DNA from: Microbacteriaceae bacterium VKM Ac-2855
Lineage (GTDB): Bacteria > Actinomycetota > Actinomycetes > Actinomycetales > Microbacteriaceae
DNA: 64,000 bases
Direction: 5' to 3'
NCBI GenBank assembly: GCA_013204985.1
Contig: JABMLG010000001.1
Span: forward strand, 616,574 to 680,573
In this document: one piece after another, positions 16,045 to 55,257 of the stretch
Position numbering within the stretch: the stretch's first letter is position 1
Layout: each line of letters opens with the position of its first letter
Made by a program: the position numbers and the translations under genes
Notes under the pieces: generated by a model
What the model saw: the letters and a program-made list of their open reading frames with translations, nothing else
The model's database searches: none
What the model was told of the DNA's origin: nothing

Positions 16045-17928
16045 TCAGCCCTGCAGGTGCGTGTGGATCGCACTCGCGAGGTTCGGGCCGATGCCCTTGA
16101 CCTCGGTGATCTCCTCGAGCGTCGCAGCCCGCAGTCGGGTCACGGAGCCGAAATGCTTCAGTAGGTCCTTCACCCGGTTCGGGCCGAGGCCGGGGATCTC
16201 GCCGAGCTGCGAGCCCAGATCGCGCTTGCGCCGCTGCCGCTGGTGCGTGATCGCGAAGCGGTGCGCCTCGTCACGGATGCGCTGGAAGAGGAAGAGAGCG
16301 TCGCTGTTGCGCGGCAGGATCACGGGGAAATCCGAGTCGGGCAGCCAGATCTCCTCCAACCGTTTGGCGATCCCGCAGAGAGTGATCCCGGTCACCCCCG
16401 ATTCGACGAGCGCGCGTTGCGCGGCTGAGACCTGCGGCTGACCGCCGTCCACGATGAGGAGGTTCGGCGGGTACGCGAACTTCTTCCGTTTCGCCTGCAC
16501 GATGTCGCCGGCGCTCGCGCTCGGGTCCGGGACCGGTTCCGCTTCGGGATCCTTCAAATAGGCGAGACGCCGGGTGAGTACCTGGTAGAGGGAATCGGTG
16601 TCGTCGGTGGACTCCGCGATCGTGAAACGCCGGTACTGGTCCTTGCGGACCAGGCCGTCCTCGAACACGACCATCGACGCCACGATGTTGGTTCCGCTGA
16701 GATGCGAGACGTCGTAGCATTCCATCCGAAGCGGCGCTTCGGCCATGCCGAGCGCGTCCCGGATGTCCTCCAGGGCCTGCGTGCGGGCGGTGAAGTCGGC
16801 CGATCGCCGAGTCTTGTAGAGCATCAGCGCCTGTTTGGCGTTCTGCGTCGCCGTCTCGAGAAGCGCAGCCTTGTCGCCACGCTGCGCCGCCCGAAGAGCC
16901 ACCTTCGACCCCCGGATCTCGCCGAGCCATGTCTCCAACGCCTCGGTGTCATCGGGCAACTCGGGTACGACGATCTCTCGCGGCGGGATGTCCCCACCCT
17001 CGTACGCCGCCTGCAGCGCCATGTCGACGAGCTCGGGGGTCGACATGTCGAGCTCCTTGTCGACGACCCAGCCGCGCTCACCACGGATGCGACCTCCGCG
17101 GACCCGGAACTGCTGCACCGCGGCCGCCAGCTCATCGTGCACGATCGCGTAGAGGTCGACGTCGACGTTGTCCTTCAGCACGACGGCGCTCTTGGCGAGG
17201 ACGGCGTCGAGTGCCGCCGCCTGGTCGCGGAGCTTCGCAGCCTGCTCGTAGTCGAAGTCGGCTGCCGCGATGCGCATCGCCTTCTCGATCTCGCCGATCA
17301 TCCGCCGGTCGTAGCTGCCCATGAAGGCGACGAAGCGGTCGACCATCCGCCGATGATCCTCGAACGAGATCTTCTGCGAGCACGGGCCGCCGCATCGGCC
17401 GATCTGACTGGCGAAGCAAGGCTTGCCGCTCTGCATGGCGCGCTTGTAGTTCGCGTCGTTGCAGGTGCGGATCGGAATCGCCTTGACCATCAGATCGATG
17501 GACTCGTGGATGGCCCAGATCTTCGGATACGGACCGAAATACCGCGCGCCGCGGATTCGCGTGTTGCGCGTCACCATCACCCGAGGCGCCTCATCGCCGA
17601 GCGTCACCGCCATGTACGGATACGACTTGTCGTCGCGGAACTTGACGTTGAACGGTGGATCGAATTCGTTGATCCAGGTGAATTCGAGCTGCAGCGCCTC
17701 GACGTCGGTCGAGACGACGGTCCATTCGACGCTCGACGCACTGGTGACCATCCGCCGTGTGCGTTCGTGCAGGCTCGGCAGCGGCTGGAAGTAGTTGCTC
17801 AGCCGCTGCCGCAGGTTCTTCGCCTTGCCCACGTAGAGCACACGTCGGTGCTCGTCGCGGAACCGGTAGACCCCCGGCGAGGTCGGGATCTCCCCCGCCT
17901 TCGGCCGGTAGTCGACGGTGTTGCTCAC
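16045..17928 (-). CDS. uvrC: Excinuclease ABC subunit C
   Basis: Dual-incision nuclease of nucleotide excision repair. The 627-residue protein has the N-terminal GIY-YIG domain (SPGVYRF ... [13 protein letters not shown], residues ~17-60), the cysteine-containing [23 protein letters not shown] region, a UVR interaction segment ([19 protein letters not shown]), the RNase H-like nuclease domain with [12 protein letters not shown] and [12 protein letters not shown], and C-terminal tandem helix-hairpin-helix ([31 protein letters not shown]). GTG 17928 lies two bases after the uvrA stop, so uvrA and uvrC are coupled. Confidence 0.97.
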
Positions 17929-52463: not shown

Positions 52464-53309
52464 ATGACCTCTGCCCCCGCTGCCCGTGTCCGCGTCCTCC
52501 GTTCTGCCACTGTGGTTCGGACCGAATGGCCGGCACCGGATATGGTGCGTGTCGTCTTCACCGGCGACGATCTGCGCGGACTACCCGAAATTGCGTTCAC
52601 GGATCACTACGTGAAGCTGCTCCTCCCCCCGGCCGGCGCCGATTACTCGTGGCCGTTCGATCCGGAGCGGATCAAGGAGACGCACCCGTCCGACTCCTGG
52701 CCCGTGACGCGGACGTACACGATCCGCTGGTTCGATCGGTCGGCCAATGAGCTGGCGATCGACTTCGTCGTGCACGGCTCGGAGGGGCTGGCTGGTCCGT
52801 GGGCCGCGTCGGCGAAGGCGGGTGACGGGTTGAGCTTCTACGGACCCGGTGGCGCCTACGCCCCGGATTCGATAGCCGATTCGTACCTGTTCGTCGGCGA
52901 CGAAGCGGCTCTGCCCGCCATCGCGGCCGCGCTCGACGCGCTCGCTCCGGATGCGGTAGCGGATGTGTTCCTCGAGGTCGCGTCGGCTGCGCATCAGCAG
53001 CCGCTTACCGTCGGTCCGAACACGTCGGTGACCTGGGTGTATCGCGCGGACAGCGGCCTCGGTTACGGCGAGCCTCTCGCTGCCGCCGTTCTCGCAGCAC
53101 CGCTTGCCGAGGGTCGGATCGACGCCTTCGTGCACGGTAACGCCGAGATGGTGAAGGTGCTTCGCCGTTTCCTCCTCGTCGAGAACCGCATCCCGAAATC
53201 GCAGGTCTCGATCTCGGGCTACTGGCGCACGGGCCACACCGAGGACCGCTGGCAGGCCACCAAGCGCGACTTCAACGCCGCAATGGAGACCGAGGCCCCC
53301 CTCTCATGA
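52464..53309 (+). CDS. Siderophore-interacting FAD-dependent protein (ferric siderophore reductase)
   Basis: 281 residues of the SIP family (ViuB/YqjH-like), which reduces ferric siderophores to release iron. The N-terminal FAD-binding barrel includes TRTYTIRWFD and the phosphate-binding SFYGPGGAY; the C-terminal NAD(P)H-binding half has YLFVGDEAALPAIAAAL, the AFVHGNAEMVKVLRR segment and the family end SISGYWRTGHTEDRWQ. ATG 52464 (or GTG 52461) with GAAAG upstream. Iron regulation is supported by the box just upstream. No siderophore transport genes are adjacent. Confidence 0.93.
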   Translation: MTSAPAARVRVLRSATVVRTEWPAPDMVRVVFTGDDLRGLPEIAFTDHYVKLLLPPAGADYSWPFDPERIKETHPSDSWPVTRTYTIRWFDRSANELAIDFVVHGSEGLAGPWAASAKAGDGLSFYGPGGAYAPDSIADSYLFVGDEAALPAIAAALDALAPDAVADVFLEVASAAHQQPLTVGPNTSVTWVYRADSGLGYGEPLAAAVLAAPLAEGRIDAFVHGNAEMVKVLRRFLLVENRIPKSQVSISGYWRTGHTEDRWQATKRDFNAAMETEAPLS

Positions 53310-53382
53310 CCTCCCACCGCACGCGCACCTAGCCGACGCCGGCCGCACCCGCCGCCGCCCTCCTCCCGCACCATCCCGCGCG

Positions 53383-53509
53383 CAAAGCGCCGCGACAAAA
53401 ATCGGCGTTTCAGCCGATTCTTTGCAGCGCGCCGTAACCGGCTCGAAACAACGCAACCACCTGCCCGAGCCGACCGCCGCGCGGCTGACGAGGAACGAGA
53501 AAGCCGCGC
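53383..53509. repeat. Repeat unit copy 1
   Basis: 127 bases from CAAAGCGCCGCGAC to GCCGCGC. Hairpin AATCGGC-GTTTCA-GCCGATT at its left, CGGCTCG/CGAGCCG in the middle and CCGCCGCGCGG at the right. Confidence 0.85.
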
Positions 53510-53550
53510 CGCAGCCTCCCACCTACCTACCTGCCACACCACCCCACGCA

Positions 53551-53677
53551 CAAAGCGCCGCGACAAAAATCGGCGTTTCAGCCGATTCTTTGCAGCGCGC
53601 CGTAACCGGCTCTGCACAACGCAATCACGTACCCGAGCCGACCGCCGCGCGGCTGACGAGGAACGAGGAAGCCGCGC
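53551..53677. repeat. Repeat unit copy 2
   Basis: 127 bases, the same length as copy 1 and differing at roughly ten positions, mostly in the loop of the CGGCTC/GAGCCG stem. The left hairpin and right palindrome are unchanged. Confidence 0.85.
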
Positions 53678-53681
53678 CAAC

Positions 53682-53797
53682 CAAAGCTGCCGGCGTCTCA
53701 GCCGATCCTTTGCAGCGCGCCGCAACCGGCTCCGCACAACGCAACCACCTGCCCGAGCCGACCGCCGCGCGGCTGACGAGGAACGAGGAAGCCGCGC
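53682..53797. repeat. Repeat unit copy 3 (left end shortened)
   Basis: About 116 bases. The left hairpin is damaged by a deletion of about a dozen bases, while the right two thirds match copies 1 and 2 closely. It ends 9 bases before the argG stop. Confidence 0.8.
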
Positions 53798-53805
53798 ACA
53801 ATAAC

Positions 53806-55257
<1,452 letters not shown>

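Follow-up and report, generated by a model that had tools for sequence, protein, structure and literature searches.

The gap between argG and a convergent gene for a siderophore-interacting protein is occupied by three tandem units of a real repeat family, which is oriented, covarying, genus-specific and located at gene ends. The window (the whole stretch of 64,000 nucleotides that was analysed, to which all coordinates refer) belongs to a genome whose genus was assigned to Rathayibacter by named matches. Our leading interpretation, tentative and a little short of probable, is that of a Rathayibacter-specific spreading multi-hairpin cassette which fills the post-stop hairpin slot of genes and would have a putative action at transcript 3' ends.

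Three structured units behind argG

Three tandem direct copies occupy 53372-53810, with distances of 168 and 120 between their starts. Matches to the 131-base unit reach 95% in copy 2 (128 bases) and 93% in copy 3 (107 bases). The best reading direction of the array is the minus strand, on which the units lie at 53810-53674, 53690-53540 and 53515-53372; these bounds are given by R1, a covariance model built from 13 genomic copies, and a run of R1 on the window only gives the second and third units, the leading unit overlapping its neighbour. Three structured direct repeats between convergent genes had been announced in a preliminary description of the window, and they are indeed present, on the minus strand. 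The first H1 hairpin of the array begins 8 nt 3' of the argG stop codon and the end of the third unit is 63 nt from the end of the convergent gene. The features are the following:

53806 to 55248, minus strand: argG, argininosuccinate synthase (ORF list; Pfam PF00764, PF20979)
53806 to 53808, minus strand: argG stop codon TGA, start point of the array (ORF list)
53674 to 53810, minus strand: leading unit, starting at the stop codon of argG, with H3 decayed (R1, 81.5 bits)
53540 to 53690, minus strand: second unit (R1, 113.3 bits)
53372 to 53515, minus strand: third unit (R1, 98.1 bits)
53774 to 53790, minus strand: conserved H1 loop of the leading unit, TTCCTCGTTCCTCGTCA (pattern match, 2 mismatches)
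53791 to 53797 (5' arm) and 53767 to 53773 (3' arm), minus strand: H1 arms of the leading unit (paired 6/6)
53654 to 53670, minus strand: H1 loop of the second unit (loop pattern match)
53486 to 53502, minus strand: H1 loop of the third unit (loop pattern match)
53564 to 53592, minus strand: H3 hairpin of the second unit, CAAAGAATCGGC / GCCGATTTTTG (sequence, fold, helix covariation in the family)
52542 to 53309, plus strand: siderophore-interacting protein gene, convergent neighbour (gene call; Pfam PF08021, PF04954)

The R1 model comprises 146 positions and three hairpins; its matches are 97-164 nt long and the copies are either single or in arrays of 2-4. In the units of the argG array, H1 is followed by GCGGTCGGCT and H2 (CGGCT/AGCCG), then by H3. 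The H1 arms GCGCGGC/GCCGCGC enclose the loop TTCCTCGTTCCTCGTCA, the loop of the third unit being TTTCTCG..., and H3 is an interrupted hairpin with an apical loop around GCTGNAACGC, decayed in the argG-adjacent unit. This unit is the copy 3 previously taken as left-truncated: on the minus strand it comes first and is of full length in the model. Each unit has three hairpins, but with the decay of H3 next to argG the AATCGGC/GCCGATT stem, described as common to all copies, is found in copies 1 and 2 only.

Over the family, the H1 arms are unpaired in the inner units of several arrays, where the 3' arm of the leading unit is repeated without a matching 5' arm. A frequent class of copies retains two arm mismatches (GGCTCT/ATCGCC), and the loop-closing pair of H1 is T-A, not C-G, in 7 of 58 distinct arm pairs. 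A subfamily with short H1 loops (TCCCTGC, TCCCCGC, TCCTTGC etc.), followed by the same GCGGTCGGCT and partly located at the same host genes, was also observed (loci L302, L308, L318, L320, L321, L323, L328, L333, L337 and L338).

No gene was called in the gap, in agreement with the preliminary description as far as tested, and the three ORF stretches crossing the array gave no Pfam match in a test that covered the first 129 aa of the 613-aa ORF and left out the ORF 53625-53834. Long ORFs do traverse the array, which could favour protein-coding repeats, a reading to which we leave a negligible chance: the match lengths fall in all three modulo 3 classes, the open frames are inconsistent and the stem changes are double-sided. 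On the lack of Pfam matches, the frames and the lengths, the coding reading was rejected, and with it the frame conserved as protein that had been envisaged at the outset.

Family size, taxonomic range and covariation

The 131-base unit alone gave 24 matches in the 4.7 Mb genome, and there are 20 exact occurrences of the 17-nt loop CTCCTCGTTCCTCGTCG, or 155 when up to 3 mismatches are allowed, versus 25 for a reversed control pattern. With R1, 55 copies were detected in this genome at E ≤0.01 and 63 at E ≤1. Copies are present in 15/15 Rathayibacter genomes, at 10-63 each, with covarying stems (see below), contrary to the refuting outcome named in the preliminary description, a unit that occurs only here and shows no covariation. 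At the family level, R1 matched 3 of 150 genomes at E ≤0.001, all of them Rathayibacter, i.e. 1 of 85 genera; no match was found among the 147 sampled genomes from other Microbacteriaceae genera, under stricter filters by which weak matches are lost. The exact loop together with GCGGTCGGC was found in 16 stretches of named species genomes, all from Rathayibacter or from Microbacteriaceae bacterium VKM Ac-2854. Within this sample the repeat family is shown to be restricted to Rathayibacter, and the lineage-specific interspersed repeat proposed in the preliminary description is supported.

A wider, family-level H1 motif was rejected: the exact 17-nt loop is present in 6 of 120 family genomes, its places outside the genus (g35, g63) being by eye coding or another repeat. 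A 19-nt loop variant, found in 2 of 150 genomes, was likewise discarded (by eye another repeat in genus g85, coding in g70). In genus g63, a distinct repeat carries the same 17-nt loop, by chance or by descent (L057, L061, L064 and L065). A weak R1 match on the plus strand of the window (16096-16239; 17.0 bits, E 0.0031), with H1 arms mostly unpaired, is probably due to chance.

Searched with Rfam release 15, the 64-kb window gave only two tRNAs above threshold; at the array, up to E 1, the sole match was RNAI (E 0.074, under its threshold). A known RNA family was rejected on the lack of any match above the gathering threshold and, as far as Rfam goes, the element is unlike any named one, as first stated. 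The array had no match in phage and plasmid records, and a phage or plasmid origin was rejected on that basis. The papers listed on Rathayibacter repeats or non-coding RNAs, on REP sequences of Actinobacteria and on stop-codon hairpin repeats mention no such element in their titles or abstract openings, subscription journals being mostly outside this scope.

The alignments support the array units as members of a putative structured family with covariation beyond chance. In the 13-copy alignment, 87.1% of the cells pair versus 74.8% after shuffling, and the covariation is 0.324 versus 0.103 in shuffled and at most 0.067 in slid controls. With 101 distinct rows, both sides have changed in 21 of 24 pairs, double-change cells number 423 versus 122 in shuffles, and the covariation reaches 0.394 versus 0.110 (shuffled) and at most 0.074 (slid), controls that are not probabilities, this alignment being fitted to the model and made of related copies. 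The check for covariation suggested in the preliminary description has in this way been carried out, and the stems covary. A loop-anchored test, free of model fitting, was run on 100 copies: 4.88 of 6 arm positions are paired versus 2.97 in shuffles (maximum of 1000 shuffles, 3.29), and the arms are fully paired in 49 of the 100 copies. On 98 of these copies the value is 4.93 of 6, in a set without the low-scoring own-genome copies L174 and L175, both of which the 100-copy set includes, and from which two copies with other H1 loops are absent.

The weakest helix is H2, with 76% of cells paired and few double changes; a first RNAalifold run gave 18 pairs, 8 of them showing double changes. The folding energy of single copies is mildly under that of shuffles (z -2.98 to +0.51 for three copies, both strands). 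Since this stability is unremarkable, the structure claim rests on covariation and not on stability. G-U versus A-C counts amounted to 14:6 for two helices summed (p 0.115) and 7:3 in a separate count (p 0.34); a looser count gave 23:6 for H1 (p 0.002) and 9:9 for H3. From these counts, selection on the sense RNA is not demonstrated. A switch pairing the 5' arm with the 3' side of H2 was rejected (7 six-mers versus a shuffled mean of 3.5 and maximum of 10).

In the family alignment the stems vary with compensatory changes and the loops are conserved. Conserved loops on variable stems, in tandem units behind genes, could also mean that the element gives rise to small RNAs from 3' UTRs; their C/U-rich H1 loop, UCCUCGUUCCUCGUC, might pair with Shine-Dalgarno regions by analogy with cuckoo/CcsR or 6C/B11. 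UCC-containing loops in the short-loop subfamilies of other species are in line with this proposal; it is nevertheless very unlikely in our opinion, considering that sequences like CGGGG or CGAAG form the loop in some subfamilies and that neither an Rfam match nor a promoter pattern was found at the array. The cuckoo RNAs or CcsR1-4 of Rhodobacter are tandem structured units placed directly behind a gene, with C/U-rich loops, and 6C RNA or B11 of Actinobacteria is a hairpin bearing a C-rich loop. The element resembles each of them in these traits. It differs from the former by its presence at dozens of loci per genome, by the lack of a detected promoter pattern and by a loop that is not common to all subfamilies, and from the latter by being multi-copy, attached to gene ends and without Rfam match.

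Position at gene ends and turnover between species

The 55 copies of the own genome correspond to 38 leading copies at 37 loci, and 34 of these 38 start at the stop codon of a same-strand upstream gene. The stop codon occupies model positions 3-5 in 21 of the 34, lies two bases later in 4 and further in for 9. One of the remaining four leading copies follows the 3' end of tRNA-Thr. The first stem starts between -5 and +13 nt from the stop in 34/34 sense leading copies, and in a few of them the stop codon is within the stem. The next gene is convergent for 21 of 34 leading copies, compared with 18 of 55 genes of the window (p 0.009). Where the next gene is co-directional, the gap measures 126-1412 nt, which says little because it includes the element itself. 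One copy listing omits units that overlap, such as two of the four at L147, and host-gene names were given by eye, except for argG and the siderophore protein. CTGAGT as a part of the unit or as a strict target site was rejected, since it is absent from inner units and several leading copies have TAG, TAA or TGTGA.

In the nearest relative (G129; 94% by argG), the loop lies within 30 nt of a sense stop in 22 of 29 leading copies and at 31-100 nt in 2, the other 5 being antisense to the preceding gene. Among 74 leading copies of the other congeners, the loop is no more than 30 nt from a sense stop in 28; in 22 the distance is 31-100 nt, and a terminator-like hairpin often precedes the element. 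Of the remainder, 6 are antisense to the preceding gene, 5 have no called gene and 13 are sense at other distances. Genes were called by a small custom script, and some antisense or distant congener cases may be miscalls or wrongly anchored loops; the copies from other species are the best-scoring ones listed, which biases them toward resemblance to the model, and the congener analysis of positions and loops is without 5 copies with other H1 loops and the partial match L320.

The location next to stop codons is compatible with a translation attenuator, in which a hairpin no further than 15 nt from the stop would stall terminating ribosomes and lower the amount of the upstream protein. The placement of the first stem in all 34 sense leading copies argues for it, as does the precedent of E. 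coli, where REPs at most 15 nt away from a stop codon are said, in the part of the source consulted, to stall ribosomes and reduce upstream protein (PMC12306157). We hold this reading to be improbable, given the 22 of 74 congener leading copies with a loop 31-100 nt away and arrays of up to 4 units without obvious use.

The gene argG was found in 15/15 genus genomes, with an identical protein end, GTD, in 15/15. The element stands behind argG only in the genome of the window and is absent there in 14/14 congeners; the sole weak model match among the congeners, L189 with 16.5 bits, is on the other strand, about 120-250 nt past the end of argG. Another strong hairpin (z < -2) is found in the 80 nt that follow argG in 11 of 14 congeners, and in the own genome the first 80 nt after argG give z -0.21, a stability no greater than that of shuffles; all these post-stop z-scores use mononucleotide shuffles.

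To follow the other sites, the flanking ends of 25 of the 38 leading copies were sought in G129 and 23 were found, one tRNA end and one doubtful case (L158) included: 8 carry the element in the corresponding position and 15 lack it. Element-free G129 slots fold at z < -2 in 9 of 14 cases. The proportion is 1 of 55 for in-gene controls and 13 of 33 for ordinary gene ends, the difference from the latter having a p of 0.20; the 14 slots are 13 of the 15 element-free ends plus a second, element-free match of one gene end. When filled and empty sites were placed side by side, as for the inverted repeats and target duplications of a MITE, the spacers were too diverged to define the ends of the element.

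At the 8 shared sites, the body identity is 0.64-0.82, compared with medians of 0.76 and 0.78 for unrelated copies. Shared-site bodies that are no closer than unrelated copies suggest independent arrival or exchange between copies. The H1 5' arms differ there at 0 to 5 of 6 positions between the two species. In 5 of the 8 sites the arms are fully paired in both species despite 2, 3, 4, 5 and 5 of 6 positions differing per side; in the other three, pairing is limited to 3-4 of 6 positions in one species or in both. Two of the 8 sites have identical or nearly identical arms. Some gene ends bear the element in several species, with H1 stems that are different but paired, and two copies which are 93% alike in body (unrelated median 76%) have clearly different arms, perfectly paired in both. 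At L162, one H1 arm includes the stop codon of the host gene. These data could be explained by a mobile structured RNA element targeting gene 3' ends (stop codons, once a tRNA end), the first stem of which would be remade from site to site. We consider this unlikely, ordinary compensatory evolution being the sober alternative to the remaking of arms. If true, it would imply a copying step (template switch or conversion) in which one arm serves to make its partner, and a terminator cassette able to move without known transposase.

The turnover also bears on a selfish DNA repeat of the REP or MITE kind, whose hairpins would serve copying or a DNA-binding protein and whose stop-codon site would be tolerated or targeted, without function for the host gene. 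This alternative, a serious rival though in our view less likely than the cassette, agrees with the absence behind argG in the congeners, with the sharing of the element at only 8 of 23 G129 gene ends, with the tandem arrays, with same-site bodies no more alike than unrelated copies and with the few G-U intermediates. The orientation relative to genes, fixed in 34 of 38 leading copies, goes beyond mere tolerance and speaks against it, as do the Y1 transposase not found in 15/15 genomes, the lack of array matches in phage or plasmid records and the gene ends that carry the element in several species.

REP units are short, about 20-40 nt, with one palindrome. The element shares with REP/BIME its high-copy interspersed intergenic palindromes, with 55 copies and leading copies between genes. 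In contrast, its unit measures about 140 nt and contains three different hairpins, its orientation is fixed and its stems vary with compensation. No Y1/RAYT transposase (PF01797, E ≤0.001) was found in 15/15 genomes, the control being positive in 5 of 14 genomes, and a REP mobilised by RAYT was rejected for this reason. The REP/BIME assignment considered in the preliminary description is not supported in the proper sense, the unit being far longer than REPs and Y1/RAYT not found in the 15 genomes searched; as tested, the family is of the REP-like and hairpin-terminator kind and not a REP member. Clustering at gene 3' ends is a further common trait, some REPs lying within 15 nt of the stop according to the part of the source consulted (PMC12306157).

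A proposed 3'-end cassette and other repeats at gene ends

Three features suggest that the element acts at the 3' end of the upstream transcript: its fixed orientation, its location at the ends of transcription units and its exchange with other hairpins. In the cassette reading, the repeat would spread to gene 3' ends, settling directly at the stop codon, and would replace the ordinary post-stop hairpin of the gene; in the RNA of the upstream gene, the multi-hairpin cassette may then help to end transcription and/or protect the new 3' end. The transcription and folding of the element, its ending or protection of transcripts and its mode of movement are what we infer from DNA comparisons. Clusters of hairpins close to the stop are described, in the part of the source consulted, as acting as terminators without need of U-tracts, chiefly in GC-rich genomes (PMC8355165). 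The element resembles them, as far as that part goes, by several hairpins located within 80 nt downstream of the stop, by the absence of a U-tract and by a GC-rich genome (PMC8355165). It differs in that those clusters form no sequence family, whereas the element is one family spreading between genes.

A canonical intrinsic terminator (GC-rich hairpin and T run) was sought at 53200-53900 and none was found, for 1.1 expected in shuffles. The terminator array suggested in the preliminary description gains from position and not from a U-tract pattern, and its bidirectional part was abandoned, 34 of 38 leading copies being sense-oriented. Against the cassette stand the missing U-tract and promoter patterns, the G-U versus A-C counts given above, the unremarkable 80 nt behind argG, the empty slots that are not clearly richer in hairpins than gene ends and the unpaired H1 arms of inner units in several arrays. 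In several species the element sits behind a terminator-like hairpin, so that it would be little transcribed there. If the cassette reading is correct, a single oriented structure could, as it spreads, colonise and replace the 3' ends of bacterial genes, and terminators would be exchanged as modules. The several hundred natural copies and the empty sites in sister species provide a set for measuring post-stop hairpins in GC-rich Actinobacteria.

Gene ends are also occupied by other post-stop families of inverted repeats with long arms, GGGTTGCCGTTTCTTTGAC..., GGGTTGTCACTCCGTCCC... and GGGTTGTCACTTTGTCGG... (L153, L141 and L145 in the own genome; L193, L197, L207 and L211 in G129); the GGGTTGCCGTTTCTTTGAC family was sought in the 64-kb window and not found. 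Behind stop codons of G129, a repeat like GGTTTCGGCAAGCTCAACCAGCG was seen at L194, L197 and L212, as a tandem array in L197; in the window, its core has no more near-matches than chance would give. At L145, direct repeats of a CTCACGCAGAAGCCATGGCGTCAGCGGTGCCCGGG-like unit lie between the element and the next gene. Behind argG, several congeners carry arrays of a CACCTCCGGCTCGC...CGAGCCGAA-like unit (L184-L190), apparently another structured family in the same slot. Finally, five near-matches of GAGCTTGTCGAA, which we take to be a core of other Microbacteriaceae repeats, were found in the window (11507, 11570, 13551, 45639 and 47661) versus 0.39 expected.
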